From contig NC_052399.1 of NCBI RefSeq assembly GCF_009389715.1, positions 29,087,146 through 29,151,145 on the forward strand: DNA of 64,000 nt, written 5' to 3'. The notes under the pieces were generated by a model. That model did not search any database. It saw nothing but the letters and a program-made list of their open reading frames with translations, and was not told the DNA's origin. The stretch is from Phoenix dactylifera. Taxonomy: Eukaryota > Streptophyta > Magnoliopsida > Arecales > Arecaceae. Both the position numbers and the translations under genes were made by a program. Shown piece after piece: positions 37,501 through 57,883 of the stretch (position 1 is its first letter; the number at the start of each line of letters is the position of its first letter).

Positions 37501-38562
37501 TAACTAATTTGCTTGGTATATATATTACTTGGTTATGTAGTATGTATGGTTTATTTTTTTATTTTTTTAATCACAGAATCGATGATTTCGTTAGTAGAAG
37601 AATCTATAACTTTTAGATTTCTTTTTAAGATGCATACTAAAAAAATATACAAAATAGGAAGCTTGTCTATTTTTTTTCTTCTAGTGCTCGCCCCATATGA
37701 TTTTTGTTCGTTATTAAGATACGAAGTTGTCCAGAAAAGCACAATATTCTCTCTCCTTTGCATTAGTTTCTCCTGAAATTCTAAATTATTTAGCTACATA
37801 TGAATTATTCCTCGGACATTAGACACCAACATAATGAAGAGGTAATGGGGTTGATGGATCAAAAAGATAAAAGAAGAAACAAAGTGGTCTAAAATAATGG
37901 CAGCAATAAATGATCCAAAGACATTAATTTGGACATATCCAAAGACATAAATATAAATATTTAACCTTGGATGGGGAATCTGTGGGCAGCTTGAATTGTA
38001 GATCCTAGGATACAGATTTATCAACTGATAGTGTTATATCATATTTTTATTAATAAGTAAAATAAATATGGCAAACCATGAAAAGTTGGATAGCACTCTA
38101 GTATGATTCAATTTTTACCATTTTAGAATGATGTGTGCTAACAATTGTTTGTTTTTTAAGAATTTACGAAGTTCTTTGTGGTAATTATTTCATATAATCA
38201 TCAATTGCAGAATGAACTCTCTTATATATCGACTAAAATTTTGCTAGAAAATATGATTATAACTTTGTTTTCTTGTTACTGTCTTTTACCTTAGATTATT
38301 TCACAGAAGAATCATGTAATTTTTTGTAACTTTAGCCCAGACAAGTATGTTGAATGTGCCCTCTTCCACCCATCCATCTTTTATTTCTACCATCTGACAC
38401 ATCAGCTAAGAAGCTGTAGTGCTGTCCAAAGCCTGATAGCTAATCCTTGCCCCTCAAGTCGGATCATCACCCGCCTACAGTTGATCGTTCAATCTAGACC
38501 GTTCATCATATGGAAACTTTTTGTAGCGGCTAAACGGTTTCCTCGATAGTTGTTAAAATGAT
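34501..38562. other. Intergenic DNA, no gene recognised
   Basis: AT-rich with short unsupported frames. Contains the compound (CT)n(CA)n microsatellite at 35631-35682 and a long T run before a splice-acceptor-like TTTTGCAG at about 37185-37210, but no exon after it resembles a known protein. Confidence 0.4.
35631..35682. repeat. (CT)n(CA)n compound microsatellite
   Basis: About 20 CT units with one interruption, followed by about 5 CA units. Confidence 0.9.
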
Positions 38563-38992
38563 GTTTTTTTTATTAATACCCTTCTTAAAATTCAAATTTA
38601 TATAAATATTTTTTAAAAATATATATTTATTTCTATATTTTTATAAAATACTGTTTTTGCACAAATATCTCTAATACAACAGTTCTTTTAATACTATTAA
38701 TAAAAATCATATTTATTTTAATTAAAAACAAAACAAAAATTTGAAATTATTTTTTTGTCTTTCATCGCGATTGTCTTATAAATATTTTTTTTTGCACATC
38801 TACTCATTAAGGTATTTTAGTCATTTTAATTTAAAATCGTTAATTTTTTAACGACATTAGATAGTGTGGTACATAAAAAAAAAGGGGTAAAATAGTAAAA
38901 ACAAGTATTTTAAGAGCATGTATATGCAAATATCAATTTTTAAAAAATATTTATGTAAAATTTGATACGTAGAAGGATATTTTTGCAAAAAA
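38563..38992 (-). mobile_element. Long-TIR AT-rich MITE, copy 1 (upstream of NRX1)
   Basis: The ends are inverted repeats that can be followed inward for about 60-100 bp (left AATACCCTTCTTAAAATTCA; right reversed AATATCCTTCTACGTATCA, then TAAATATTTTTTAAAAAT in both). The core read on the minus strand contains TTTTAAATTAAAATGACTAA and a GACAATCGCGATG word shared with copies 2 and 3. It is non-coding and lies 390 bp before the NRX1 start codon. Confidence 0.8.
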
Positions 38993-39381
38993 TATATATT
39001 TAAATACAGGAGTATCCCGTCACCTTTTCAACTCTTCCACGCCGACCATATCCTCCATGCACGGACGAAATTACCGTGAACTCCCTACCACTTCCGTCTA
39101 GTTACGACGGGAGCCGTCGTGTCCTTTTTGTAATAAACCCCTCGAACCAAGGCCGACCCCCTTCCCCTTCGCACCGCCCTCGCTCCGGAGTCCCCAGATA
39201 CGCCTGGTGTTTTCTTAACAGCAAAGCAAAGAATAATCAGAAGAAACTTAACGGACGAACAAACGCCGAATCTCCTCCGTCAATAAAACGAAGCCCCCCC
39301 CTCCCCTGCGGCTTCTCAGCCACTCTGTCCGAAACCCAGCGAACCAGGGAGGGAGATAAAGAGTGAGTCGCCGGCAGAGAC

Positions 39382-42300
39382 ATGGCGGAAGCCGAAGGAG
39401 CCGCTAACGGCGGGAACGCGCACGATCTGAAATCGCTCCTCTCCGCCGAGGGGAGGGACTTCCTCGTCCGCAACAACGGCGATCAGGTGCCGATCTTTTC
39501 CCGACTGTCCCCGGTTTCTTTTTTATAAACCTATGACCTCTAAAACTACCTCGATTTTTGGGAAATCATCGGCGTTAGTCTTACTACTCTTAGTTAAATA
39601 ACGGTTATTATAACGGGAGAGCTCTTCCAGACACCGTACTGGTCTTTACAGCGGCGTTATATTAAAAACATATCTGTCGCTCCAATCTCTAAGTTAAATA
39701 ACAGTTCTTTTGTTTCTTTTTCCAGTTTGATTATCAAATTTCGGTTATGTTTAAATTTTTCTTTTTCTTTATTTTGTAGCTTAAATAGTATATAGTGGCT
39801 TACAGTAGCAAAGTCGTGCCATTATGAAAATTTTATATTTTAAGTAATATTATATATATATATATTGGTACATCGATATTTAAGTACAGCTCAAAAGTAT
39901 CAGACAATAAATGCATGAGAGGCAAAATAGAAGCGTGGGTCTTCCAGATGAGTTGATCAAAATTTTATTGATTTGTGATGCTTTTGTAACGCTCGTGATG
40001 CCTCACCATCATTTTTTTTTTATCAAAACGTTACAAACGGATTAGTTGGTAATGAGTCATATGTCTATGGGATATCAATAGAATCTTGCTTCTCCTTTTG
40101 ATGGAGCCTCGTAATGAAGGAAGAAAGTATTCTGATACAAAGCTAAATTGAATTAAAAATCAGTTTGACAGAAAGTTGAACTTTAATTCCTAACTATTAG
40201 CCGGGTGCAATCTTCTCCTCATCATATTGTCTGTTGTTTTATCTATTTTTTCTTGCTGGCTGTTACTTATTCTATTCCTTTTGCATTGTGCATTCCATTC
40301 TTGTCTCTCTCACATATTTAATAAATTGAGCGGCTCAGCCTCCCCTCCCTTCAAAAAAAAAAAAAAATCCTGGATGTCATTAATTGTTCTCCGCTTGTAT
40401 GCCCAGGAGAGGCTTACTGTAATGTTAGTTATTATTTTTTACAAAAAAAGCTTTATGTTTCTGATCTCCCAATATATCAACTCTCTTCATTTCAATGGTT
40501 GTTGATGGATTAAAGAACAGTGCTAGTCTGAAGAATGGATAACATCTTTAAACTTGAAACACTCCAGGTGAAGATCAGCAATTTAGATGGTAAAGTCACT
40601 GGTCTTTACTTCTCAGCCTCATGGTGTGGCCCCTGCCACCGGTTCACTCCGAAGCTGGTCGAAGCCTACAATGAGATATCATCGAGGGTCGGCGATTTTG
40701 AGGTCATCTTCATATCGGGCGATGAGGATGAAGAGTCATTTAACAACTACTTCTCTGAGATGCCATGGCTCGCCATTCCTTTCTCAGACTCTGAGACCCG
40801 AGACCGCCTCAACGAGCTGTTTGATGTTAGCGGAATACCCCACCTTGTGGTCCTTGACAAGAGTGGCAAGGTTCTCACCGATGAGGCTGTGCGGGCGGTG
40901 AGAGACTATGGCTCCGAGGGGTACCCGTTCACGCCTGAGAGGATTGCGAAGATGAAAGAGGAGGAGGAGGCTGCGAAGAAGAACCAAACTCTTCGAAGCG
41001 TGCTGGTTTCCTCCTCTCGTGACTTTGTGATATCAAACAGTGGAAATAAGGTACCTGTGGCAGAACTTGAAGGAAAGATTGTGGGTCTGTACTTCGCGCT
41101 GAGTTCTTTTGCGCCATGCATTGAGTTTACCCGAGTGCTCTCAGATATGTATGGCAAGCTGAAGGAAAAGGGGGAGAGTTTTGAGGTTGTGCTGGTATCC
41201 TTAGATGATGAAGATTCATCTTTCGAGCAAAGCTTCGCCAGCATGCCATGGCTTGCAATCCCCATCAACGACAAGAGTTCCGAAAAGCTCGCCCGCTACT
41301 TTGAGCTCGAGACCATCCCAACACTTGTTGTGATTGGCTCGGATGGGAAGACTCTGAATGCCAATGCTGCCGAACTTGTGGAGGACTATGGGGTTGAGGC
41401 ATACCCATTCTCTCCAGAGAAGTTGCAGGAGCTCGCAGAGAAGGAGAAGGCGAAGATGGAAGCACAGACGCTGGAGTCGCTTCTTGTTTCTGGGGAGCGG
41501 GATTATGTCATTGGAAAGGGCAATGTGAAGGTAAGGATTCCATCCAGTTCAGTATACTGCTTTGCTTGCTTGGTTCGTTGCGAGGATTCTGTCCATGTCT
41601 GTTTAGTGCTTGCTTAGCTTATCTTCATCTCGAGCTTATTGAGTTCATTGGCTTTTAATGCATGCTGCACCATGTAAAACCTTTACTTTTAGGCATTCTT
41701 ATTATGACACACGTTTGAGCATGATTTAAGTCCACTTATTTCAATCCAGGTATAAGACTGCCTTATGAGTTCATCAGTGGTAACAGTGTGGCATTCAATG
41801 GGAAATATTTTAGTACAAGCTTAAATCAAACTCATGCATTATAAAATAGAAATCGTTCCTTGTACCTGGAGAATGATTTTGTTTGAATTAAGTGGGTAAA
41901 AAATATATATATGCTCTGTTCAGCACATGACATTGGATTATGAAGGTGGCAGCATGGACTGTTTCCCACAAAAATATCACCTACTTTTGGTGATAGGATC
42001 TCAAAAGCATGCATATTATCTATATAATCAGCAACATGTTTAAATGTTTCTATTTACAGAGCAAACATTTCAAAAATCGAGTTCAGGCTTCTCATCAGCC
42101 TTACTTCAATGGTGGTACTTACATTACTCTTTGGGTGTCAGTGGTTAAGAAAGAAAAAGCTTGGATGCAAAACATCTCCTTGGATAGATAAGAAGGATTA
42201 AACAACAACATGAATCAACGTATGTATTTTTACCTATTCTTGTGCAGATAAATGGTTGCATGGAATCCTTAAAGCAATTTGAAGCATGGTATAGAGACAA

Positions 42301-43115
42301 GTTAATAAATGTTTATCTTTAACCGAACAATTCTCCAAATTACTCTTGGAACATGTCTCTATATATGCAGCAAGTTTACAAACTTACCTCTTGTCTCCTT
42401 CCTCTTGGATTAGGTTCCCATATCTGAACTTGTTGGGAAGAATATCCTTCTCTACTTCTCAGCGCACTGGTGCCCTCCGTGTCGTGCATTTCTGCCCAAG
42501 CTAATCGATGCATACCACAAGATCAAGGAGAAGGACAGTGCCTTCGAAGTGATCTTTGTCTCAAGTGATCAGGACCAGAGCTCCTTTGATGACTTCTTTT
42601 CTAGCATGCCATGGTTAGCCCTTCCCTTTGGAGACGAGAGGAAGAAGTCTTTGAGCCGCACGTTTAAGATCTATGGCATCCCATCCCTTGTTGCCATCGG
42701 CCCAACTGGAAAAACAATCACCAAGGAAGCAAGAGAGCTCGTGATGGTCCATGGAGCTGATGCTTACCCCTTCACCGAGGAGCGATTGAAGCAGCTTGAG
42801 ACAGAGAGTGAGGAAATGGCAAAGGGATGGCCGGAGAAAGTGAAGCATGAGCTCCATGAGGAGCACGAGCTTGTGAAGACCCGCCGTTTGGGGTATATCT
42901 GTGACCGGTGCAAGGAGGAAGGCAAAGGGTGGTCTTTCTTTTGCGAGGAGTGTGACTTTGATATGCACCCCAAGTGTGCATTGGAGGAGGAGGAGGATAA
43001 AAAGATGAATGATATCGATGAGGGTGGTTTACTTGGTGAGGACCCTCAAGACAGCCAAGGGGAGGGTGGCAAGGAGGGGTATGTGTGCGAGGGGGGTGTC
43101 TGCTATAAAGCTTGA
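39382..43115 (+). CDS. NRX1: Nucleoredoxin 1, three thioredoxin domains plus DC1 finger
   Basis: Cytosolic/nuclear thiol-disulfide oxidoreductase of the plant nucleoredoxin family. Exons 39382-39486, 40568-41530 and 42414-43115 are all phase 0 and GT-AG, giving 589 residues. Thioredoxin domain 1 has WCGPC (54-58) and domain 3 has WCPPC (375-379). The middle domain keeps the fold ([15 protein letters not shown], about 210-222) but lacks the CxxC pair. All three domains carry the PWLA(I/L)P motif. A C1/DC1-type zinc finger closes the protein ([16 protein letters not shown], about 513-545). Length and order match plant NRX1. The start is [11 protein letters not shown], the first ATG in a GC-rich leader; the family start is variable. 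A MITE sits upstream. Confidence 0.95.
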
Positions 43116-44599
43116 GGTCTTCTATCACTGGTTTTCAGACAATTATATGTTACCTTAAGTCCTAAACTGCTTCTGATAACTCATGATGCTTGTTTAGAAT
43201 TTTAAATTCCTGTCTTGTAATCTGAAATGGAAATGAATAGGCTTGTCCTCTGATTACAAATCTTATGATAGAATTCATAGAACTTCAATGGTTCCTGCTC
43301 TTTCACAGTTTTTAAGCAGTTTTAGTATATATAACTGTGGTTGTTTATCAGGCTGTTAAAAAATGATTTTGTTTACTAAACCATGTATGTCTGAGTTTGT
43401 CAAAACAGTTATATACAAGATGTTATGCTGATTGTAAAGAGTATATATTTTACCTCATAAACAAATATATAGAAGGTGCCAAATGACACCTCAAAGGACA
43501 GGATTGTGGCATAAAGGTTTTGACCAAAAAAAAAAAAAAAAAAATATTAGAAGATTTTTTTATAAAAAAAACTAATAAGGGCAACATACTGACTCTTTTT
43601 CAAATAGAAATTGGTGATTTTCCGGAATGCCTACATTGTATTGAGTGTAGATGTTCGAATACTATCTTATCTAACGAATTGAAAGAAAAATTAACTAATA
43701 GTATTTCAATTTTAATTTTCTAATTAGAGCATCATTACTTACACATGATTAGTCACCTGATAAAGAATGATGACATTTTGTTTCAAAAGCTAAGGTAGGC
43801 TAATATTTGAGACGGCAGCAAAATAGATGTTTGAGGGAGCAAATTTGCTATATCTATTTTCTTAGATACTTTGGTAAGTTGTCAAAATCCAACATGGCAT
43901 CCGAGTGGCACAACCTAGATATGGGCGGACCCATTGACTCGCTGCTAAGGTGTCCCATTGCAACGAGCAACATGGAGATCTAAATTGAAATCCCCATCAA
44001 AAGTAGGGATATTAACTCTGCAATAGAAAACAATTAGGGGTATTAACAAGGTGACATGGCTACCAAATGAGACGAAGGATGATTGATTCAAGCTTAATCT
44101 AGATGTTTTATTCAGCTAAGCTCAAGATCAGGTCGATTAATATCAAGCAGACCTCAAGCTCCCAACAAATTGCTTGTTTGAGGAATTGCAGAGACAATGA
44201 GATTTTACTAAGCTTTCACATATGTAGTCCGAGATAATCTTGCTCGGTATATTTTCTTAACAACTAGAACATTTAGCAGCATGTTTAACAATGCACCCCT
44301 TAAATTAGCATCTGATTGCCAAGAAACAATTTTATATAAAATATAATATACTTAATAAATAAATATGAAAATAATTATAATACTAATTAAAAATATTGTT
44401 TTTGCTTATATACATTCGTATACCGACTTTAACCAAGCTGAATTAAGCTAGCCAAATATCAAGCTTGGGTCATTAATTAATTGAACTAACTTGTTTGTTT
44501 TGACAATTCTAATTATAAAAAGGGTGCATTTCCTCAACTCTCCTTCTGATTTTCATGATACATTGCATCATTTTTTTTTTTTAAGACAAAGAATAAAAG
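43116..44599. other. NRX1 3' region and AT-rich intergenic DNA
   Basis: The likely NRX1 3' UTR occupies the first 200-300 bases. A long A run lies at about 43528-43545. Nothing else recognised. Confidence 0.4.
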
Positions 44600-45050
44600 A
44601 ATTTTTTTTTATATGAATACCCTCCTAAATATCAATTTTGCATAAATATTCTCTCAAAATTAATATTTACATGTATACCCTCGTAAAACACTTGTTTTGC
44701 TATTCTATCTTTTTTTATCCATGTTTTTACATATGTACCCACGCCATCTAACGTTGTTAAAAAATTAATAGTTTTAAATTAAAATGACTAAAATACTCTT
44801 AATGGATAGATATACAAAAAGAAACATTTATAAGACAATCGCGATGGAAGACAAAAAAAGTAATTTCAAAATTTTATTTTATTTTTAATTAAAATAAATA
44901 TGGTTGTTATTAATGGTGTTAGAAGAACCATTATATTAGGAGCATTTATGCAAAAATTTATGAGGTACAAAAATAAATATAAATTTTAAGAAGATATTTA
45001 TGTAAATTTAAATTTTTGGACGGGTATTTATGTAAGAATCTTTAAAAAAA
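44600..45050 (+). mobile_element. Long-TIR AT-rich MITE, copy 2 (upstream of PP1)
   Basis: The left end ATATGAATACCCTCCTAAA and reversed right end ACATAAATACCCGTCCAAA begin inverted repeats extending about 100 bp (both continue with GCATAAATAT/ACATAAATAT and then TAAAATT or close variants). The core has TTTTAAATTAAAATGACTAA and ACAATCGCGATG, as in copy 1 but in the opposite orientation. It ends 307 bp before the PP1 start codon and is followed by a (GA)n tract. Confidence 0.82.
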
Positions 45051-45356
45051 CAAAAGAGAGGAGAGAGAGGGAGAGAGAGAGAGAGAGTTGCCTTTGGGGC
45101 CCAAGTCATGCGGAGGCCATGGTCGGTAACGGGCCTCCCCTAGAAGCTGACGTGGCACCGGCGCATGAGGCGGAGAGATCCTCCCCCTTCTCCATTTCAG
45201 ACCGCTTGACCCCCTCAATCTCCGGTTTCCATTTCTCTCCGTCATTTCTCTTCTCTCCGTTAAGCGATCTCCAGTGATCTCGTGCGGATAACCATCGAAA
45301 AGTTCTCATCTTTTTCCCCCCTCTTTTGTCTTGCAATTCTTCCATAGACGAAAATA

Positions 45357-47589
45357 ATGGAAGGAAGTGCTTTGGATGATTTGATCGAGAGGTTACTCGA
45401 AGGGAAGAAGAGCAAGGGGAGTGGCAAGAAGATTCAGCTCAGCGAGGCCGAGATTCGCAATGTCTGCGTTGCTGCGAAAGAAGTCTTCCTGAGCCAACCC
45501 GTCCTCCTCGAATTGGAGGCACCCATTAATGTCTGCGGTAATGCTCGCGACCTCACGCCCCCTGCACCATACTTGGCTTAGAAGCAAGAATTGCTAAATT
45601 ATGATATGTTTAAAATTTTGGCCACCTTTAATTTTAATGATTCTTTCATGTTTTTTGCTCTTCCAAAATTGATCATGAATTGCATTCTCAAAAAAAAAAA
45701 ACAGAAAAAGAAAAAGAAAACCATGAACACATGATGATAGGTTTGAACCATAAATAAAAACAAATTCTTAGATTAAGGAGTTGAACTTAGTTTAGGACTC
45801 ACACTTGTGCTCATGCTTTTAACCCCAGTTTCTTTTCATTGTGGCTCATAGATTTTTAGGGTTAATGCCAGAATGAATTGTTTAGGTTCAATTTTTTTGT
45901 CATTTATTTGTAATCTGCCTTCTTAGATTCGTTACAAATGAATTTAAATTTGTTCCTTCTTTCAATTTGTGCATGACTTTTATGGTTTGTTTTCGTTTAA
46001 AATTTCAGAAATTCAAAAATTTAATATGTTGATGATGATTTTAAGCTAAAGCCTAGAATCATAAAATGGAAAGAAAAATCTATGAAGTAAAATAAAAGAA
46101 GGGTTCTGCGAGGCATCGTTCCCTTGCTTCAACCCTATTCGGCTCCATTGAAGAGGTTGGGTTTTGTCCCAAGACTTTTGGAAAGATTTTTTTAAAAGCA
46201 TGTCTAATCTGAAGTGCAATACAATCAGGCTTGTCAGCTTGTCTGTAGGAACAAGAAATGTACTCTAATTTCTTGTGAGTTTATAACTGATTAAAATGTG
46301 TGATTATTTGTTTTCTATGCAACATTAAAATAAGGATGTGATTGATAAAAATTCAGCTAATTCAGTAGGTCATAGTGCTAAAATTACTATTGGGTTCAAT
46401 TTTCAGCATACTAGTAGTAACTGATGGCTTCATTAATATATTATAACCTCGACTTTCATGTCATGAATATTTCTTGCCTTTTCTCTCTCAGATTACCAAG
46501 TATTACTATACAATTTTTGGTAAAATGTACTGATATGCCATTTTTTTTTTCAGGTGATATCCATGGCCAATTCTCTGATCTGCTCCGACTTTTCGAGTAT
46601 GGTGGCTTTCCTCCACACTCTAACTACCTCTTCCTCGGTGACTATGTCGACCGAGGGAAACAGAGTATTGAGACCATCTGCCTCCTCCTCTCCTACAAGA
46701 TCAAATACCCTGACAACTTCTTCCTCCTTCGAGGAAACCATGAATGTGCTTCCATCAATCGGATTTATGGCTTCTACGATGAATGCAAGCGTCGTTTCAG
46801 TGTTAGGCTTTGGAAGCTCTTTACCGATTGCTTCAACTGCCTCCCGGTGGCCGCTGTCATCGACGATAAGATATTCTGCATGCATGGTGGGCTCTCACCA
46901 GAATTGCAGCACTTGGACCAGATAAGGCAGATTGAGAGGCCAGTGGACGTGCCAGACCAAGGATTGTTGTGCGACCTACTATGGTCGGACCCCGACCGAG
47001 AAATTAAAGGATGGGGAGAGAATGATCGAGGTGTTTCATATACTTTTGGGGCTGATAAGGTGTCTGAGTTCTTAAGGAAGCATGATCTTGATCTTATTTG
47101 TCGTGCACATCAAGTAAGTATGCCTAATCTACATTTTATCAAGCATTGATGTCAATTCTAGATCATCCAATCTCTAAATTTATAAGATAGCCATTTTGGC
47201 TGCCTAAGAAAGGGTTGGATGTTGGAAGACTTGTGGTGAAGGATAAAAAAAGGAGGATTGAAATGTTGTTTATTTAATTTTAAGCAAAAAAAAAACATTG
47301 TGGTATGTTTCATTATTATTTCCAGCAAAAGTTAAATAAGATGTTGGTTTCTTAGGTTTTCGTGACCTTTTAAGGCATGATAATCTAACAAACGGATTTA
47401 ACGAAACAGGTTGTGGAAGATGGCTATGAATTCTTTGCAGATAGGCAATTGGTGACCATATTTTCAGCCCCAAACTACTGTGGGGAATTCAATAATGCTG
47501 GCGCACTGATGAGTGTAGATGCGAGCTTGCTTTGCTCTTTTCAGATCCTCAAGCCTTACAGAGGGAAGGTAGGAGGGCAGCTGGATTAA
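45357..47589 (+). CDS. PP1: Serine/threonine protein phosphatase PP1 catalytic subunit, 3 exons
   Basis: Metal-dependent PPP-family phosphatase (type one, TOPP in plants). Exons 45357-45537, 46554-47113 and 47410-47589 give 306 residues. Metal and catalytic motifs are in place: GDIHGQ (61-66), GDYVDRG (89-95), RGNHE (120-124), then [23 protein letters not shown] across the exon 2/3 junction and [19 protein letters not shown]. The end is slightly unusual: after [11 protein letters not shown] the simplest reading continues VGGQLD and stops at 47589. However GGGAAG|GTAGGA is a possible donor, and a NAGNAG acceptor at about 47718-47726 would give a very short last exon instead. ATG 45357 ([17 protein letters not shown]) matches the family start. 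Intron 1 is about 1 kb. Confidence 0.95.
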
Positions 47590-48921
47590 AAGTACCGACA
47601 ATCACAGCAGAACTAGCAAGCTTTAGGCTTAAAACACGAGAAAGTGAGGATGAAAAAGTTGGTTACATTTGTTTTGTTTTCATTTACTTTACTGAAGGAT
47701 TATTTTGCTACTCCTTTTTGCAGCAGATTAGTTAAGCTTTCTGTTGCACAATGCTTTAATTTGTATCTGTATATATATAAAAGGAAATCTATTGCATCCA
47801 TACACTGATCTAGCATGCCAATTGATTCATGTCTTTTTTATCAGAAATTCAGAACCACAAAACATTTACCAGCCTCCCGAGCACTCGCTACTTTATGTCT
47901 CAAAAAGTCATGAATGGTAGGGAAGAAAGAGTGATCCGATTTCATTTTCAATTATCCTAGCATATGGTCTGCAGACATGGTCAGATGCCATATAGCACTT
48001 AGAAACTAACACCACAGATCATTCAGACTTTGCTGAAATAAAACTATTGCATGATATGAAGATGTAGTCCTCAGATCATTAGTCCTTTAACATCAGAATG
48101 AAAACCTGGATTTCCATCAAATGAAAAAAGAGTTGGTGTGCCATCTTCAACATCCTAGTCAATGTGTTATGGGTTATCTAAAATTTGTATAATTTAAAAT
48201 ATAAAGTTTTCTTAGCACAGTGGATATTCGGTGACTTGACATTAGTGTCCTAGAATCCTATTACTTTTTGCAGCCAAATAAGAGCTAGGTCCTCTTCCTT
48301 CAAATGTCATAAACATAAGTTAGAGATGAAACGAAAGCATATAATTTGATCTCTACACCATCAGAGGCCAAGCACTAGCAAGAGAGCAAGTAGGATGATC
48401 AACTTCACAGTAATTAATCCCTTTTCTTGTATATAAATTACAATTTGCGGTTGATTTTTAGTGGTGCTTCAATCAACATTTAAGGATCAAGAGAGCACTA
48501 GGCAGTAACAATTCAGAACTAAATGGCAGATTTAATAGTTTGTATCTTTCTAAGTTGCAGATCCTTCTCCAGTCAAATGAGGAAGAGATGGGTGTACCAG
48601 GTATATCTCCAAGAATAATTCCCTCTTTGCAATGTTGAGGAAGACAAACTGCTGGCACCTTGCTACGATGTTGATACTGGTCGAGAGACACTGATCTGGA
48701 AATTCAGTAAGCACCAAGTTTCAGAGATTGCAATACATTAGCCAAGCATCTAGATTGTTTCAACTATTCTTATCCTTGTCAAGAATTATATGGCTCGTAG
48801 TGATCACTAGCCGGCCGATGACTTCATCATTTTGCTTGCACCAGAGAAACTGTAGTGGTTTTGCAGGGGCTAGTGGAATGCACTATAGAATCAATTGAAG
48901 TAAAATCATTGACAATAATAA
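47590..48921. other. Convergent 3' regions of PP1 and the PPR gene
   Basis: PP1 (plus) and the PPR gene (minus) face each other across this stretch, which should hold both 3' UTRs. No additional coding signal. Confidence 0.5.
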
Positions 48922-50682
48922 TCACAATGTACAAAACTCTAGACCTGAAAACCAGCTTCGTGCAGCCTCCTTTCTCAATCCGCTCGCATCCAATCTCTCC
49001 CTCAAATTCTCCTTTTCTTCCCACAATCTTCCTTCAGCATATATATTCGACAACAACACATACGGCCCATCCTTCTGTGGCTCCAATTTCATAACCTTCT
49101 CTGCAGACCTCTGTCCCAATTCCATCTCCCCATGAATTTCACAAGCTCCAAGAAGAGCTTCCCATGCCAACGGATCCATTTCTATCCCCATCTCCCCTAT
49201 GAACCTCTCAGCTTCTTTCAACCTCCCGGAACGACCCAACATATCAACAACACAAGCACAATGTTCCCTCTTTGGCTTAACTCTGTAATGGGTCACCATA
49301 GAGTTGAAAATTCTAATCCCATCATCCACAAGACCTCCATGGCTGCATGCAGATAGGCCTGCAAGAAAAGTAACAGCATCCGGCTTAAATCCTTTGCTCT
49401 CCATTGATCCAAAGATTTCGAGAGCCTCTCTTCCCTTCCCATGCTGACCAAGCCCAAGAATCATCACAGTCCAGGACACCACATCACGGCTCCTCATAGT
49501 TTCGAACACCACCCGAGCATCTTCCAAGCTACCGCACTTGAAATACAAATCTACTAGAGCATTCCCCACCATTACATCCGATGAGAACTCTGACTTGACA
49601 ATCCTACAATGAACCATCCTTCCATGCTCAAGGCTTGCCAGGAAACTGAATGCTGGTAATACACTAGCGAAGCAAAATTCATTCTCCATAACACCGGATG
49701 TCACCATCTCTTTGTAGAAGCTTGCTGCTTCCTCTGCCAGCCCATTCTGCACCAGCCCTGCAATCAGTGCAGTCCAAGAGATGATGTTTGGCTCCGAAAC
49801 CCTCCGAAAGGCTGCAACCATAGAATCCATCCCTCCTCCACATTTGGAATACATGGTTATGAGAGCATTCCCAATGGGAGCATCTGACACCAAGCCAACC
49901 TTCCATGCACACCCATGGAGCTGCATGCCGAACCTCAAATCTTCTCTCTCCAAGCACGTTTTTAGTACAGTTGTAAACGTGAAGGAATCGAAGCTTCCAT
50001 TTCCCTCCCTTCTCATTCGAGAAAAGATCTCCATGGCATGGCATTTGCTCCCCCTCCGAGCACACACATCAATCATGATGTTGAAAGAGACTGCATCCAA
50101 TTCAGCAATCTCCTCGAACGCACAAAGTGCTTCCTTTAGCCCTCTACACCTCTCATATCCGTTCACCATCGCACTCCCCACGAATTCATCCGAGTTGAGT
50201 CCAAATCTGATCGAGTGTGCATGGATTTGCTCCACAAAGTGAGATTCTTTCATGCCGTCAGAGGCAGCGAGCAACGAGGAGAAGGTGATGTTGTTAGGCT
50301 TCACGCCATCGGCCAGCATTTGAGAGTAGAGTCGGAGAGGCTCGAATGCGTTGCGGTTGATACGGATTTGAGCTGAGATCATGGTGTTATAAGAGACGGC
50401 GTCTCTCGTGGGCATTACGTCGAACAGCTGATGGGCTCGGCGAGCGAAGCCGCACCGGTAGTAGAGGCTGAGGAGCTTGTTCCAGAGAGAGAGGGAACGG
50501 TCGAGCGACTCGTGGAGTTTTTGGAGGCGGGCGTGCGCGGCTGCGCCGCGGCGGGCGTCCCCCGCGGCCGTGCACGAGTCCAGGAAGTAGGCTAAGCGGT
50601 GTAAATCGAAGGAAACGGCGTCGGCGGAGAGAGGTTTGAGGAGATTTAGCGGGTTGCCCATACGAAACCGATATGCTTCCAA
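48922..50682 (-). CDS. PLS-class pentatricopeptide repeat protein (E subgroup), single exon
   Basis: RNA-binding PPR protein of the plant organelle type, expected in mitochondria or plastids, where this class recognises C-to-U editing sites. The intronless frame gives 586 residues (an alternative start at 50661, MGNPLN, would give 579). Repeats of 31-36 residues run from about 65 to 480, for example LFDVMPTRDAVSYNTMI, GNALVDLYFKCGSLEDARVVF and SRDVVSWTVMILGLGQHGK. An E-type end follows (WEALLGACEIHGEMELG, GPYVLLSNIYAEGRLWEE). It stops at LRKEAARSWFSGLEFCTL, where many relatives continue with E+/DYW, so there is no DYW deaminase domain. The GC-rich N-terminal part contrasts with its AT-rich flanks. 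The exact target RNA cannot be told from sequence. Confidence 0.93.
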   Translation of the reverse strand: MEAYRFRMGNPLNLLKPLSADAVSFDLHRLAYFLDSCTAAGDARRGAAAHARLQKLHESLDRSLSLWNKLLSLYYRCGFARRAHQLFDVMPTRDAVSYNTMISAQIRINRNAFEPLRLYSQMLADGVKPNNITFSSLLAASDGMKESHFVEQIHAHSIRFGLNSDEFVGSAMVNGYERCRGLKEALCAFEEIAELDAVSFNIMIDVCARRGSKCHAMEIFSRMRREGNGSFDSFTFTTVLKTCLEREDLRFGMQLHGCAWKVGLVSDAPIGNALITMYSKCGGGMDSMVAAFRRVSEPNIISWTALIAGLVQNGLAEEAASFYKEMVTSGVMENEFCFASVLPAFSFLASLEHGRMVHCRIVKSEFSSDVMVGNALVDLYFKCGSLEDARVVFETMRSRDVVSWTVMILGLGQHGKGREALEIFGSMESKGFKPDAVTFLAGLSACSHGGLVDDGIRIFNSMVTHYRVKPKREHCACVVDMLGRSGRLKEAERFIGEMGIEMDPLAWEALLGACEIHGEMELGQRSAEKVMKLEPQKDGPYVLLSNIYAEGRLWEEKENLRERLDASGLRKEAARSWFSGLEFCTL

Positions 50683-51024
50683 GTTCTTTGCACGACTTGC
50701 GTACCAACCAAGTCAATGTGGCGGGAAATTCATGCATCCGCGCCTCTCTTCTCCATGCTTACACAGGGGTTCGGGTTGTATGAAACAATGATCGCGACGT
50801 CGTCCGTTGGATTGCGCACCACACGGCTCTCAAAGCACTTTAAACTCTCCTATTCATCTTTTGCACACATCTTAAAGCACTTTAATATTTACAAGAACTA
50901 CCTGGCTTTGGGCGAAGAAAGGTGAATCATTCTTCATACAAAAGATATAATCCCCACCCTACAAATAATGGTCCTTTCCTAGAGTTTTGCTTTAAATCTC
51001 TATATTTAAATGGTGAGCCAACTT

Positions 51025-51366
51025 TAGCATTGTGATCTAAGATCGCCGGCGTTCCTCGTTCTATGATAATATGATCTTCAATGATATCCATGATTAACCT
51101 GTTTGATTTATCATGAGAATCCAATATTATTAACCATATAATACTAAAACTATCCGTGATATATTTCATATATTCTATAAATTTTTATTGGGACTAAGGA
51201 GGTATTTTTATCTCCAAACTTCTATCCAACATCACTATTATTGGGTGATCTTGGAAACATATCCTCAATGATGGGTTCAACATCAGTGCATTGGACGATC
51301 ATTTTAGGACTAGAGGTGATTTGAGATCCCTACCTATAGAATCACTGAGGTTCAACTAAACATAGT
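51025..51366. mobile_element. Second, degenerate Tourist-like MITE copy, split by an LTR
   Basis: The sequence follows the 18598-19169 element in order: GTGATCTAAGATC, then CATGA(T/G)TAA.CTGTTTG, CATGAGAAT.CAA, CCATATAATAC.AAAACTA, TATTCTATAAA, TTTTTATC.C, and GGTGATCTTG. It breaks off at 51366; the next few bases of the family pattern (AGTGATTTAGTTC) resume at about 52106 after an inserted LTR. The TIRs have decayed. It sits about 340 bp upstream of the PPR start codon. Confidence 0.65.
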
Positions 51367-52103
51367 TATTGCTGGAAATTGGACCCGGGGCGGCCGTCGG
51401 CTGAGAGGGTGGAGCTCCGGCGAGAACTGGCGGACGGCGATCCGTCGGCGGGCGGCATCCTCCGTAGGGTCTGTAAAAAAGCCGGTGGTCGGGGTTTCCG
51501 GCGCCGGCCCTCCGATGCCTAAATCAGAGGGGGGCAAAAGCATAGGGAAAAATGTATATCCAGAGTTTCAGCGTCCAGCCCCTCTAAGATGGGAGGGTTC
51601 CCCTTTTATAGAGGGGTACTGGATTACCTGTGATATGACGGGGTGGAGTTACCGTATGATTGAGCATGTCGTATGAATTAATGCAGGATTGTGTGAATTA
51701 ATGCCTTGCCGTAGGAGATTAGGCTGGGCCAAGGAGCTGTCATGGCTGATCAGACGCAACCGAGCAGATTTGCCGTGGAGGGCTTGAGATCTGTAGATAG
51801 CAGGAGCCATGCGTATTAATTGTTGAGTAAGCCGGAAGTCTGCAGAGCCCATACGCATTAATTGTTGAGTAAGCCGGAGGTCTGCAGAGTCCATGCTCAT
51901 TAATTGTTAGCGGCGGCGGTAGGGGATGGTCTCTGGTTGAGCTGCAGAAGGATGTGACCGCGGCAGGTGGATGGTGAGGTCAGGCTTCCGAGGTCGGGAG
52001 CTCTCAGGTCGGGCGTCAGGTCGGGCGTTTGAGGTCAAATGCCTCTGATCACGTGCTAGTGACGTACTCATGTGCTTTGGGGGGACTTGTATTTCCCCCA
52101 ACA
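51367..52103 (-). mobile_element. Solo LTR, probably Ty3/gypsy type (fossil)
   Basis: A GC-rich 737-bp block interrupts the MITE remnant and is bordered by the 5-bp direct repeat ATAGT (51362-51366 and 52104-52108). It has TGTTG/CAACA-type ends. On the minus strand it shows a TATA box (CTATAAAAGG, about 51600) followed by a region ending in CTGATTTAGGCATCGGAGGG-like sequence, as in monocot Gypsy LTRs. A roughly 47-bp unit (ATTAATTGTTGAGTAAGCCGG) is repeated near 51815-51905 in the promoter part. There is no internal region or second LTR, so it is a solo LTR left by recombination. It looks moderately young because the ends are still clear. Confidence 0.7.
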
Positions 52104-52718
52104 ATAGTGATTTAGTTCGGTGTACGAATTGAAATTCTCTTCTCGGAGATGTTTAAAGCTTTTCGCATTAAAACTAGGGTTCGTGGCTACATGCACAACA
52201 ATGGGTAATGTTGACAAACTGTCTTAAGATAGCAAAGCATTGTATTTGATTCATTAAACTATTTTCTATATGCTTATTCCCTTGCACTTTGCAACAAAAA
52301 AAAGGAACTATTTTGTTATTGGCCAAAAATCATCACATGGGCATAAGATTTCTCTAAGATGCCGTACCTTATTCATATCATGTATGGATTAGCTTGCCAT
52401 CATCTCTGTTCTCTAAGGTAGACTCTTTTATAGAAGATAGTATTTTGAAGCAAAAGGTAAATGAATCTCATGTAATGCAAGATTCCTTTCACATAAACAA
52501 GGACAATAACCTAGCTAATCAGCCAAGGGATATGAGCTTATAGCTTTTAATATTTTTTTATCAAAAGACAGAAGACCAGATTTGGTAGGCTTTGGGGTCG
52601 GTGGCCCACCTTGGTTATTTAAGTTGAAAGGATTTGAATTTTAGGTAAATTTTAGAAATGAAAAAGAAACATGACCTGCGTGTATATGTCAATAGTGAAG
52701 CTATTGACATGATTTTAT
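52104..52718. other. Intergenic DNA with the tail of the split MITE
   Basis: The first 20-30 bases continue the MITE pattern. The remainder is AT-rich with nothing recognised. Confidence 0.4.
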
Positions 52719-53044
52719 GTATATATATTTTTGTTGAAAAATAGGGGGGGTAGGCGAGGACACCTCACCCGCATAGCAGCCTCCATTGGCCCCCCTCTAC
52801 CAGAAAATATTCGATGCAGGTAGAAATTTTGCACATACCCTCATCGACCCGTGGGTCCCCCACGTGTGAGTATATCACCTCAGCACCACCTCAATGCCAA
52901 CTGGACCAGATAGCGCTCCCATCGAGCGTATCTAGGTGGGAGACATCCGGCCCCCAACATTTAATCGACGCCTGCGCATTTCGAACCTGAACTACGCCGG
53001 TGGAAGCAAAGCTCCGTTCCAACTGTGCTACCACCTTGATGGCA
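52719..53044 (-). mobile_element. tRNA-derived SINE
   Basis: Read on the minus strand from about 53044, the head contains an A box (TAGCACAGTTGG, 53030-53019) and, 31 bp further, a B box (GGTTCGAAATGC, 52987-52976), the split Pol III promoter of tRNA-like SINEs. The body of about 230 bp is GC-rich, and the end is C-rich then A/T-rich. GATTTTAT occurs on both sides (52711-52718 and 53045-53052), a plausible target duplication. No SINE family name can be assigned from memory. Confidence 0.75.
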
Positions 53045-53052
53045 GATTTTAT

Positions 53053-54460
53053 ATTTGTTTAGGTCGGTTCATATCTTGGCCCAACTCAAAGTTCTAAATT
53101 CCTTGATCTACATCTATCTTCCTAAAGAATTTGCATCCTTGGTCTATGACCTATCTCCTAAAAGCTTGTATTATATGAAGCTAAAGAATCTCACCTTAGA
53201 AAGGATATTTAATCGTATTTGTTTTGTCTTCTAAAGTCTTTTTAGAGATTAATCATCAACTACTTATTGTATCACAGGTATAAATATACTTGCTAGATAT
53301 TAAGGGCAAATAAAATAAATGATCTTATATACACTCGTATTTGTTCATGCAAACAAAACTTGCTTTCCAATTGAATACAATGTAGGGTTATTCCAGTAAA
53401 GCATTGTATCAAATAAATACATACTAGATATTAGTTATAACTGTCACTTACTTTCAAGGTTCAAGTAACTTGTTTTTTTTTTTTCCATTTTCTTATGATT
53501 TATAACTTGCTTTGACAAAATTTTATACTTTTTTGCTGTCCATATTTTAAATGAGCATAACTATAGTTATTATAAGCTGTATATTAGATATTTATTTATC
53601 CTTAGCATAGAATACACTTTTGTATTATTGAATCATACTTACTCTAATAGTTAAGTATCACATTTGTAGAATTTTAATTTATCTTTTAATTGAGAGTTTA
53701 AAGCATGTATTTTCTCTTAAAATCACTTTCATCCTATCGACACTTCTTTTATAACATAATCAATATGTTACCATTTTGAATATACGTTGCAATAAAAATA
53801 ATTGGTTTAGAGGGATTTAGAATAGCAAACATAAATAGTGGAGAAAAAAAATGTTCTTTGGCTATGATTACTATTAGTTCAACAAATTTATTCTTATTTA
53901 TTTATATATGGAGACTCGGCTTTATTCAAATGAATCTCTACTTATATCCTATCAGATCTAGATCAAATAATGAAGATTCAACATTAATGATCTAAATCGT
54001 TGAATGTGATCTATTATCTCTAAATTATTTGTACATGAAATTTCATATGATTTAAAGATATTTAGATCATGCATCAAATAGTTAAAAAATTAGATAATTT
54101 GAATAATATAAAAATAATATATTATTTGACTATTAAATGTGGAATTTTCGAATGATATGATTTTTATTGTATAAGTAGTTTAGAGATAACAAATCACATC
54201 CAATATTCTGAATCATCGATATGAAACTCGTATCATCTTATTTAGACTCGATTGGATATGAGTAGAGATGTACTCAAGTATAAAAAATTAGACTCGTATC
54301 CCTCTATCTAGCACAGTTGTGCATGTTATAAGATGCTTTTTTTTTCTTGCTAATGTACACTGATCCTGTTAATCAGCAGAGAAAAAGTACCATAATCCTG
54401 TTAATCAGCATAGAAAAGTACCATGTCTCACGCGGAGTGCAACTTTAGAGCTTAGCAATT
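53053..54460. other. AT-rich intergenic DNA
   Basis: No coding frame and no paired transposon ends recognised. The short direct repeat AATCCTGTTAATCAGCA..AGAAAA occurs twice at about 54362-54417. Confidence 0.4.
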
Positions 54461-54469
54461 ATTTATCTA

Positions 54470-55060
54470 CAGGGAAACATAATTTGGTCATAAAAGGTGT
54501 CACATTCTGTGGTTCCACTAGAGTTGCCGGGGAGCATAAGAGATGGTGGAATCCTTTGGGGGTAGGGCCCACGTGTTTGACAAACGAGCGGTGCGGCTCC
54601 CTTCCCGGAAGCTGCAGGCGACGCCAGCTGAGCCTCAGCCCGCACCGTTCGAAACAAGCCCAATCCCGCGGACGGTAAGGTCCACATGCGGTCAGGCCAG
54701 TTGTTCCCTGGGGCCCACTGTCGCCGTCTACTTCCCTCTTCTCGAGACCCTTAATTGTATCCAATTATATCACGCCACGCGTCTCTGGCGCTGCCCCGCT
54801 ATCTCGCGAGTCGCGACAGAGACCGAGACCGAGACCGAGACCCGAGACCAGCCAACCAGCCCAAGACCCGACGCTCTTTTCTCGAAGATTAATTTTAGTC
54901 CCTTATTTACCCTCCACCTCATCATTAAATCTCCAAATGCCCCTCTCCATCCGACGGCTGGAATCGCCCGTCTCATCATTGTGTGATCGCTCGTCCGCCG
55001 TCTCGCCCCTCGACTTCCCATTACGCCGATCGCCAGCCCCGAACTATTAACACCGTCACG
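54470..55060 (+). promoter_or_regulatory. GC-rich distal upstream region of EXO70
   Basis: A GC-rich stretch with no supported gene. It contains CCCACGTGTTTG (a G-box core) near 54568 and a short minisatellite of GAGACC hexamers at about 54820-54848. Its composition suggests open promoter DNA, now separated from the gene by the MITE at 55078-55459. Confidence 0.35.
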
Positions 55061-55077
55061 ATGGAAATAATATTTTT

Positions 55078-55459
55078 TAGATTTTTTTCATAAATACCTA
55101 TCTAAATATCAAATTTTATGTAAATATTTTTTAAAATTAATATATATATATCCTCCTAAAATATTTATTTTGCTATTTTATTTTTTATTTTTAATTTTAC
55201 ATATATATATATATCTACACCATTTAATGTCATTAAAAAATTAACAATTTTAAATTAAAATAACTAAAATATCTTTAATGAACATATGTGCAAAAAAAAT
55301 ATTTACAAGACTATCGCAGTAAAAAATAAAAATAAATATGATTTTTATTAATAATGTTAGAAGGACCCTTATATTAAAAATATATGAGAATAAAAAATAA
55401 TATAAATTTTAAAAAATATTTATATAAATTTAAATTTTTAGAAAAATATTTGTGCAAAA
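55078..55459 (+). mobile_element. Long-TIR AT-rich MITE, copy 3 (upstream of EXO70)
   Basis: The ends TTTTTTCATAAATACCTATC and (reversed) TTTTTTGCACAAATATTTTTC are inverted repeats, and the core TTTTAAATTAAAATAACTAA matches copies 1 and 2. The element is bordered on both sides by AAATAATATTTTT (about 55065-55077 and 55460-55472). A target duplication of about 9-12 bp fits a Mutator-type origin better than PIF or hAT. It lies 519 bp before the EXO70 start codon. It is the most AT-rich and probably the most diverged of the three copies. Confidence 0.8.
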
Positions 55460-55791
55460 AAATAATATTTTTCCCCATATTATATGCACTGAATTAGAAT
55501 TTTAGTTTTAAAGTAACGTAAGAGAATTTCAAACAGCACCGTTATTTTTCACCGACAGTCAGAAGTCATCCTAACCGGTGTCCGAAATCGCCCGCCATAA
55601 AGTGGCCTGAATCTGATATCCACGGCGGAGATTCTCCAAACCAATGACCACTTCTTTATCAATCTCGCACCGGGATCAAATCCGAGAGAATCTCTATTTT
55701 ATTGTCTGAACCGGTGTCGTCATACCAACCGTCCGATCAGTAGTCCTCAAGTGAAGCTGGAACGCCTTCGTCGGAATATCGTCGCCATTTG

Positions 55792-55978: not shown

Positions 55979-57883
55979 ATGATGGACGACTACGGAGGCG
56001 TGATCGCGTCGCCGGCGGCGGAGGGGGAGCTGGAGGCGGCGGAGCGGGAGATCATGCGGTGGGACTCGGTGTCCCAGGCTGCCGAAGACCGGATGCTCTT
56101 CGACGGCGGGCACCGCTCCGACGCCGAGCGGTTCCTCCGCGCCGTCGACGAGATCCGCCGCTCCATCAAGGGCCCCATCGTCGTTGGCAGCCCCCGCCGG
56201 TCGTCGTCCTCCTCCTCCGGGTCCACGTCGGCGAACGCGATCCAGATCGCGATGGCCAAGCTGGAGGATGAGTTCAGTAATATACTGGTTTCTAGAGTCA
56301 ACGAGTTCGAGATCGAGTCGCTCGTCGATCTGAGCTCGCTGTCGATGTCGATGGAGGAGGATTCGGCCGGCGGCGATATCTCCGATGCAGAGGGCGGCGA
56401 GGACTGGAGTCTCCGGCCGTCGGGATCGGAGGGGAGCAGCCTGGGGCACAGCAGGAAGAGCAGCAGCTACCAGTCGACGAGAAGCGTCCGGGAGATCGAG
56501 CTGGTGCCGGAGGACGCGATCGCGGATCTCCGGAGCATTGCGGAGCGGATGATCGCCTCCGGCTATGGCCGGGAGTGCGTCCAGGTGTACGGCTCCGCCC
56601 GGAAGGCGGTGGTGGACTTGTGCTTCCGGCAGCTCGGCGTCGAGAAGCTTAGCATCGGCGACGTCCAGCGCCTCGAGTGGGACGCCCTCGAGGCCAAGAT
56701 CCGCCGCTGGATCCGGGCCGCCCGGGCCTGCATCCGGATCGTCTTCGCCAGCGAGCGCCGCCTCTGCGAGCGCGTCTTCGACGGCCTCGGCGGCGTCCCC
56801 GGTGGCGACGACGCCCCCTTCAACGAGACTGTCAAGGGCGCGGCCATCCAGCTCTTCGGCTTCGCCGAGGCCATCAGCATCGGCCGCCGGTCCCCGGAGA
56901 AGCTCTTCAAGATCCTCGACCTCCACGACGCCATCTCCGACCTCCTGCCGGACGTAGCCGCCCTGTTCCGCTCCCGGTCTTCCGGGTCCATCTACACCCA
57001 GGCCGCCGGCATCCTTTCCCGCCTTGCCGAGGCCGTCCGGGGTATCCTCTCCGAGTTCGAGAACGCCGTCCTCCGGGATCCCTCCAAGATCCCGGTCCCT
57101 GGCGGCACCATCCACCCGCTGACTCGCTATGTGATGAACTACATCAGCCTCATCTCTGATTACAAGCAGACTCTGGTCGAGCTCATCGTCACGTGCCCGT
57201 CGGCGAGCTCGCGGTTCGCCGGTGAGGATCCGGGTGCTGGTGGCCCGGAGATCGACTTCCCGGAGCCGGAGAACCCGTCACCACTGGCCGCCCACTTGAT
57301 CTGGATCATCGTTATACTCCAGCACAATCTTGAAAACAAGGCCAATCTCTACAAGGACAATGCCCTCTCCCATCTCTTCTTGATGAACAACGTGCACTAT
57401 ATTGTCCATAAGGTGAAGGGCTCGCCGGAGCTCCGGCAGCTGATCGGAGATGACTACTTGAGGAAGCTGACAGCGAAGTTCCGGCAGTCAGCAACTAGAT
57501 ACCAGAGGGCGACATGGGTGAGGATCCTCTACTGTTTGAGGGATGAGGGAATTCATGTGAGCGGGAGCTTCTCTTCCGGGGTTTCCAAATCGACGCTGAG
57601 GGAGAGGTTCAGGGCTTTCAATGCGGCCTTTGATGAGGTCCACCGGACTCAGGCAGCATGGTTGGTGCCGGACACTCAGCTGAGAGAGGAGCTGAGGATT
57701 TCGATATCGGAGAAGCTGTTGCCGGCCTACCGGTCCTTCCTTGGCCGGTTCCGGCATCATATAGAGAGTGGTAGGCACCCTGAGATGTATATCAAGTATT
57801 CGGTTGAGGATCTAGAGGCGGCCTTATCTGATTTCTTTGAAGGGTGCACACCTTCTCCACTCAACAGGAGAAGATCACATTGA
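55979..57883 (+). CDS. EXO70: Exocyst subunit EXO70 (D/F-type), intronless
   Basis: Subunit of the exocyst complex that tethers secretory vesicles to the plasma membrane. It is a single exon of 634 residues, normal full length for the family. The N-terminal part (MRWDSVSQAAEDRMLF) leads into a helical region. The Pfam-type EXO70 core starts at about 180 with IADLRSIAERMIASGYGREC and continues through KLSIGDVQRLEWDALEAKI, SIGRRSPEKLFKILDLHDAI, GGTIHPLTRYVMNYISLISD and, at the end, YIKYSVEDLEAALSDFFEG. These phrases fit the EXO70D or F branch rather than A1 or B; the branch call is from memory. The first of two adjacent ATGs is used. The 5' half is extremely GC-rich, declining towards the end, the gradient typical of commelinid monocots. 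Confidence 0.95.
   Translation: MMDDYGGVIASPAAEGELEAAEREIMRWDSVSQAAEDRMLFDGGHRSDAERFLRAVDEIRRSIKGPIVVGSPRRSSSSSSGSTSANAIQIAMAKLEDEFSNILVSRVNEFEIESLVDLSSLSMSMEEDSAGGDISDAEGGEDWSLRPSGSEGSSLGHSRKSSSYQSTRSVREIELVPEDAIADLRSIAERMIASGYGRECVQVYGSARKAVVDLCFRQLGVEKLSIGDVQRLEWDALEAKIRRWIRAARACIRIVFASERRLCERVFDGLGGVPGGDDAPFNETVKGAAIQLFGFAEAISIGRRSPEKLFKILDLHDAISDLLPDVAALFRSRSSGSIYTQAAGILSRLAEAVRGILSEFENAVLRDPSKIPVPGGTIHPLTRYVMNYISLISDYKQTLVELIVTCPSASSRFAGEDPGAGGPEIDFPEPENPSPLAAHLIWIIVILQHNLENKANLYKDNALSHLFLMNNVHYIVHKVKGSPELRQLIGDDYLRKLTAKFRQSATRYQRATWVRILYCLRDEGIHVSGSFSSGVSKSTLRERFRAFNAAFDEVHRTQAAWLVPDTQLREELRISISEKLLPAYRSFLGRFRHHIESGRHPEMYIKYSVEDLEAALSDFFEGCTPSPLNRRRSH

Follow-up and report, generated by a model that had tools for sequence, protein, structure and literature searches.

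Passages of the literature on plant transposons describe miniature inverted-repeat transposable elements (MITEs) near genes in several plants and report that the inverted repeats of MuDR-type MITEs give rise to 24-nt small interfering RNAs (siRNAs) in Arabidopsis (PMC12595863). The Mu elements of maize are described as preferring the 5′ ends of genes (PMC2774946), and in barley, rice and maize an enrichment of upstream islands of CHH methylation (mCHH islands) at Mutator-type elements is described (PMC8374106). Here we compare with these systems a MITE of the date palm, Phoenix dactylifera, three copies of which lie just upstream of three different plus-strand genes in a 64,000-nt stretch of the genome (assembly GCF_009389715.1, contig NC_052399.1, positions 29,087,146 to 29,151,145, forward strand; hereafter, the window). 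We consider it highly probable that a single non-autonomous Mutator-like element (MULE) MITE family, present in many copies, gave rise to all three insertions, and that their upstream position reflects ordinary gene-side insertion in a window rich in genes, to which a preference on the part of the family would have contributed modestly at most. Title-level listings contained no literature on this MITE family in date palm, which is no proof of absence.

The MITE family and its termini

The preliminary description of the window had assigned the three copies to a single MITE family with long terminal inverted repeats (TIRs), an assignment that pairwise comparison confirms at 70–79% mutual identity and E ≤ 4e-52. 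Copies 1 and 2 are 79% identical over 435 bp (BLAST, E = 2e-98), copies 2 and 3 are 70% identical over 440 bp (E = 3e-53), and copies 1 and 3 are 70% identical over 417 bp (E = 3e-52). Each contains inverted arms, which span 60–106 nt with 72–82% complementarity and thus qualify as long TIRs. The core 20-mer, described as shared by all three and altered by one base in copy 3, was recovered as two exact matches and one with a single mismatch, compared to a mean of 0.08 in 100 dinucleotide shuffles, none of which (0/100) contained three. Orientation is, as had been stated, not conserved, copy 1 lying the opposite way round to copies 2 and 3. That no further copies had been noticed in the window also holds for near-full-length ones: no fourth match to copy 2 was found there at E ≤ 1e-10, and the rest of the window contains, among the matches listed, merely short and weak similarities to the family. 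No open reading frame (ORF) of 110 amino acids (aa) or more, stop to stop, is present within the three window copies.

The family is real, well defined, abundant and ordinary in kind. The exact core occurs at 208 places in the genome (773,078,369 bases in 2,391 contigs), part of them clustered in one array on contig 11, compared to none for the reversed pattern used as a control. A DNA search with copy 2 returned 3,116 first-look candidates, 40 of which were scored and comprised copy 2 itself and 39 others; the latter are 84–89% identical to copy 2 and nearly all span almost the entire query. The family majority sequence has 442 positions, corresponding to an element of ~440 bp with copies on many contigs, and its terminus reads GGG-TTTTTT-GCATGAATACCC; two loci matching over just ~230 bp (L003 and L008) were left out of the family alignment. 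Size below 800 bp, inverted ends, near-uniform length, high copy number and, as checked in the three window copies, no transposase ORF are the properties of a MITE.

Both ends were readable by script in 34 of 39 copies, the unreadable ones being window copies 2 and 3, L005, L036 and L045. A duplication score of at least 7 was obtained for 16 of the 34, compared to 6.7% of shuffled end pairs; the modal length of the target site duplication (TSD) is 9 bp, as in MULEs (9 bp, range 8–11), with 12 of the 20 best duplications being of this length and the commonest offset being 3 nt per side, which corresponds to GGG/CCC. The clearest case is L080 (G000:C8:27911100-27912900), where one MITE copy is nested within another in inverted orientation, the outer copy being flanked by the perfect 9-bp duplication TATAATATA at 448 and 1349 and the inner one by the equally perfect 9-bp AAATTTATA at 514 and 958. 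In the window, the duplications flanking copy 3 agree at 8 of 9 bases. The 9-bp duplications and long inverted ends, together with the lack of a long ORF in the window copies, therefore identify the family as a MULE-type MITE, the termini and duplications suggesting that it would have been transposed in trans by a MULE transposase. A search for MULE transposase domains in the genome yielded 452 candidates, of which 150 were scored, all exceeding the cut-off.

Several results count against this assignment. Copy 1 has no clear TSD, its best candidate duplication containing 2 mismatches in 9, and none is clear by eye for copy 2, the ends of which escaped the end-pair script. Furthermore, the MITE showed no significant match to L082 or L083, which both belong to a common MULE family with a 394-aa frame, and these two copies were accordingly rejected as autonomous partners; a comparison by eye among the entries listed likewise gave no partner. 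The 394-aa open frame is found at many genomic places at equal score, and L082 and L083 are 99.5% identical over 6.2 kb; because of this near-identity, the MULE family has probably moved recently.

Table 1. Positions of the MITE copies, their parts and the genes downstream of them, numbered from the first base of the window
Feature	Position	Strand	Remarks
MITE copy 1	38553–39003	-	~450 bp; ends approximate (few bases), based on the outer inverted arms and BLAST to copy 2
Core 20-mer, copy 1	38817–38836	-	exact
Inverted arms, copy 1	38553–38658/38898–39003		72% complementary
MITE copy 2	44599–45042	+	ends approximate (few bases); termini from the family alignment; least diverged of the three
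Core 20-mer, copy 2	44772–44791	+	exact
Inverted arms, copy 2	44620–44679/44964–45023		75% complementary
MITE copy 3	55079–55464	+	termini placed by eye; most diverged, AT-decayed; GC 0.127
Core 20-mer, copy 3	55248–55267	+	1 mismatch
Inverted arms, copy 3	55082–55143/55400–55461		82% complementary
Left 9-bp TSD, copy 3	55070–55078	+	ATATTTTTT; boundary set by eye
Right 9-bp TSD, copy 3	55465–55473	+	ATATTTTTC
Nucleoredoxin-type gene, downstream of copy 1	39382–43112	+	Thioredoxin_8 at 40532–41614; Thioredoxin_8 and C1_2 at 42414–43112; end approximate
PP1-type phosphatase gene, downstream of copy 2	45357–47146	+	STPPase_N in 45357–45500; Metallophos in 46421–47146; end approximate
EXO70 gene, downstream of copy 3	55979–57883	+	Exo70_N and Exo70_C in 55979–57880; stop at 57883

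Nearness to genes

Pfam domains bear out the downstream genes named previously (NRX1, PP1 and EXO70) as being of the nucleoredoxin, PP1 and EXO70 types (Table 1). The nucleoredoxin gene has a predicted start, since the 43-aa first stretch from the ATG at 39382 had no Pfam match. The upstream placement of the copies also stands; the gaps separating them from the ATGs at 39382, 45357 and 55979, given earlier as 390, 307 and 519 bp, become ~380, ~315 and ~515 bp when the ends are read by the family termini.

Each of the three window copies thus has an ATG no more than ~520 bp downstream of it, and three random upstream placements would have a chance of 7e-5 to 5e-4, assuming 5–10 genes per 64 kb and bearing in mind that the pattern was picked post hoc. 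Such an arrangement would be produced by promoter-targeted insertion, in which a MULE transposase, like that of maize Mu, prefers open chromatin at gene 5′ ends and concentrates copies upstream of start codons; the preference of Mu for regions 5′ of ATGs (PMC2774946) and the MITEs found near genes in several plants (PMC12595863) provide precedents, as far as the passages of these sources go. The preliminary description had proposed promoter-biased insertion or gene-side retention as a rule for the family, along with a comparison of distances to genes, which we carried out by proxies. The surroundings of 37 genomic copies (1.2–1.5 kb per side, 106,660 bases) were compared with 40 randomly placed stretches of 3 kb each (120,000 bases in all), drawn from ten long contigs. 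The 37 copies, which are not a random draw, are the 29 closest to window copy 2 and the 8 exact cores that head the list (7 on C1, 1 on C2), with window copy 2 itself (L009) excluded. They represent 35 independent sites, the locus pairs L026/L034 and L031/L032 (on C54 and C4) having both the MITE and its flanks in common, as a consequence of local duplication or uncollapsed haplotypes. The sampling frames are unequal, with 10 of the 37 copies on small unplaced contigs compared to 0 of the 40 random places.

ORFs were picked by one rule and then matched against Pfam (157 + 59 around copies and 187 + 81 around random places, the first set covering 34 of 37 and 37 of 40 loci, respectively). The ORFs for Pfam were chosen with a codon-usage score, which had six window ORFs as its training set and served also as a side proxy; as a stand-alone gene test it was dropped as too weak, one true PP1 exon scoring −17. 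Host-protein matches were obtained for 5 of 216 ORFs around copies (RRM, 2; AMP-binding, 2; Sgf11, 1), at no more than 5 loci, along with two retroelement families. Around random places, there were matches for about 14 of 268 ORFs and of about 11 kinds (PPR, cyclin, PsbP, RRM, Pex24p, Myb, ion channel, subtilase, RPE65, SNO and DnaJ), along with many retroelement domains, both figures being sums over unlike families, with 25 of 28 families covered in one of the listings and two of the other three PPR-related. The matches to Sgf11 (5e-4) and Pex24p (1.5e-4) are weak. A match was assigned to a locus just for L001 (RRM), L041 (cyclin), L055 (PPR) and L078 (SNO), and of 20 copy-locus ORFs scanned singly, L001 alone gave a match. 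Taking one kind per locus, host domains are present at 5/37 copy loci compared to 11/40 random ones (odds ratio 0.41, p = 0.17) or, if all five matches are assumed to belong to placed copies, at 5/27 compared to 11/40 (odds ratio 0.60, p = 0.56). The one-sided 95% upper bounds of 26% (on 5/37) and 35% (on 5/27) are near the figure of about 28% for random loci. The same ORF and Pfam rule detects a gene domain at 2 of the 3 window copies.

The remaining proxies lean weakly towards genes and, to that extent, speak against an ordinary placement. A GC peak, defined as a 300-base stretch at or above the threshold within 1 kb, was found at the 0.55 threshold for 14/37 copies compared to 10/40 random places (p = 0.32), and for 11/27 compared to 10/40 when copies on placed contigs were considered (odds ratio 2.1, p = 0.19). 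In bare counts, a codon score of at least 20 was reached at 13/37 copies (10/27 placed) compared to 9/40 random places. Other thresholds gave 21/37 compared to 20/40 (GC at least 0.50, p = 0.65), 15/27 compared to 14/40 (GC 0.52, placed contigs, p = 0.13) and 8/37 compared to 8/40 (codon score at least 30). Neither the Pfam nor the GC-peak proxy reveals a significant enrichment: the Pfam matches do not exceed the random level and the GC peaks do not differ significantly from it, and the sample does not show the proposed rule for the family. A strong family-wide promoter bias was not seen in the sample, and about a two-fold bias is compatible with the data. Promoter-targeted insertion therefore appears unlikely as the explanation for the three copies, compared with ordinary insertion beside genes. 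Regulatory variation is well known to arise from MITEs lying upstream of genes, and a bias of the entire family towards promoters would have mattered.

Cytosine decay and arrays that contain the MITE

The CHH-heavy decay of the family is the most interesting lead of the analysis. Measured against the majority sequence derived from 39 copies of the family, transitions affect 24.9% of consensus C:G positions in CG, 25.3% in CHG and 21.8% in CHH contexts, as opposed to 2.5% transitions and 1.9% transversions at consensus A:T sites. The window copies have lost 26% (copy 2), 43% (copy 1) and 61% (copy 3, the highest among the 39 copies compared) of their C/G sites by transition, with 3–6% of A:T sites differing. 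As a control we used a coding copia fragment, 12 sequences of which were compared pairwise, with few CG comparisons (307); none of the other repeats listed was present at four or more examined loci, and the flanks of segmental duplicates were dropped as a mutation control, being too few and partly badly aligned. At a transversion divergence of 0.044, the estimated loss in copia is 0.48 for CG, 0.28 for CHG and 0.13 for CHH, compared to 0.30, 0.41 and 0.26, respectively, in the MITE at equal divergence. The ratio of CHH to CG loss is accordingly 0.85 in the MITE (bootstrap 0.69–1.06) and 0.28 in copia (0.18–0.47); the 29 closest MITE copies alone, at lower divergence, give 0.68 (0.55–0.85).

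Because CHH sites are lost nearly as fast as CG sites, unlike in the copia control, methylation of the type laid down by RNA-directed DNA methylation (RdDM) is suggested, and dense methylation in all contexts as under RdDM, followed by deamination, would be the simplest reading that fits the decay. Folded as RNA, the near-palindromic copy 2 has a predicted energy of −93.2 kcal/mol compared to −65.5 ± 4.5 kcal/mol for shuffles (z = −6.1). RNA of such an element may feed siRNAs, which would keep the MITE methylated in all contexts and thereby expose it to decay by C>T changes. The hairpin potential and the CHH-heavy C>T decay point indirectly in this direction, and the MITE might supply small RNAs, as the preliminary description had suggested. 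Two considerations tell against this interpretation: in the MITE, CHG loss (0.41) exceeds CG loss (0.30), so that the spectrum is CHH-heavy and not simply flat, and the CHH argument relies on a single control family of 12 sequences, with the added complication that CG sites decayed early may be absent from the MITE comparison. Among trinucleotides in the MITE, CTA, a context favoured by CMT2, has the lowest rate (0.115), and that of CAA is middling (0.216).

Two arrays incorporate the MITE. The larger, on C11 (24,218,784–24,323,193, ~105 kb), contains 25 exact occurrences of its unit marker, on both strands and nowhere else in the genome. A 6-kb portion (L039, G000:C11:24217500-24223500) includes six matches to the C/D-box snoRNA snoR114 over the Rfam gathering score and one borderline tRNA match (29.2 bits compared to a gathering score of 29), the type of which ARAGORN leaves open, Met-like being a tentative reading. 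The markers are spaced 726–974 bp apart, and MITE matches, some of them partial, extend along the entire 6 kb; the unit is composed of a decayed tRNA-like stretch, snoR114 and a MITE copy. Judging from this composition, a MITE seems to have been taken up by a tRNA-like/snoR114 cassette and then amplified together with it, an example from nature of how a MITE can hitch-hike on the amplification of a small-RNA gene cluster. In a small satellite-like array derived from the MITE (L081, G000:C289:227700-230700), six MITE-internal units are repeated in tandem at ~386-bp spacing.

Taken together, these features may amount to a heritable footprint of persistent, CHH-inclusive methylation in the MITE family. 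Its decay could then be read as a record of RdDM kept in the germline of a long-lived woody monocot; the three copies beside genes would be promoter insertions marked by RdDM, and the family would be one captured and amplified with a tRNA-like/snoR114 cassette. We regard this broader reading, drawn from sequence comparison, as a tentative possibility with the odds somewhat against it. If it is true that RdDM targets are marked by CHH-heavy C>T decay, transposon families silenced by small RNAs over evolutionary time could be ranked from sequence alone.

The same decay and the strong hairpin of copy 2 might also be taken to favour selective retention or domestication, whereby promoter-side copies are kept for their regulatory DNA or for siRNA-directed, mCHH-island-like methylation that aids the neighbouring gene, and the upstream mCHH islands, which passages of PMC8374106 describe as enriched in barley, rice and maize at Mutator-type (DTM) elements, would be consistent with this. 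However, the window copies, whose C/G losses amount to 26, 43 and 61%, look unconserved, albeit by comparison with a sample that favours close relatives of copy 2, and we consider retention for a function very improbable.

Comparison with known elements

Membership in a different superfamily, such as hAT with its 8-bp TSD, could be read into the 8 of the 20 best-scoring duplications that measure 7, 8, 10 or 12 bp, yet is scarcely credible given the 9-bp majority with its 3-nt terminus, the two perfect 9-mers of L080 and the long TIR, which suits a MULE better. As a non-autonomous MULE-type family, the date palm MITE resembles FaSt, the 358-bp Mutator MITE of apricot described in passages of PMC12595863, in its shortness, inverted ends, 9-bp duplication and high copy number. 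With maize Mu, to which a 9-bp TSD and long TIRs of about 215 bp are ascribed (PMC2774946, in part), it shares the duplication length and the long TIRs, although its arms are shorter (60–106 nt); the likeness is drawn at the level of features. Unlike maize Mu, the date palm family displayed no significant preference for the fronts of genes in our small sample. The mCHH islands that passages of PMC8374106 place at gene-side Mutator-type elements of grasses find a possible parallel in the decay of CHH sites nearly as fast as CG sites, although methylation in the date palm family is deduced from the mutation spectrum alone, and in a palm, compared to the islands of grasses. Apart from a promoter bias, which the sample does not show, the date palm family fits the published picture of MULEs and MITEs as another member.

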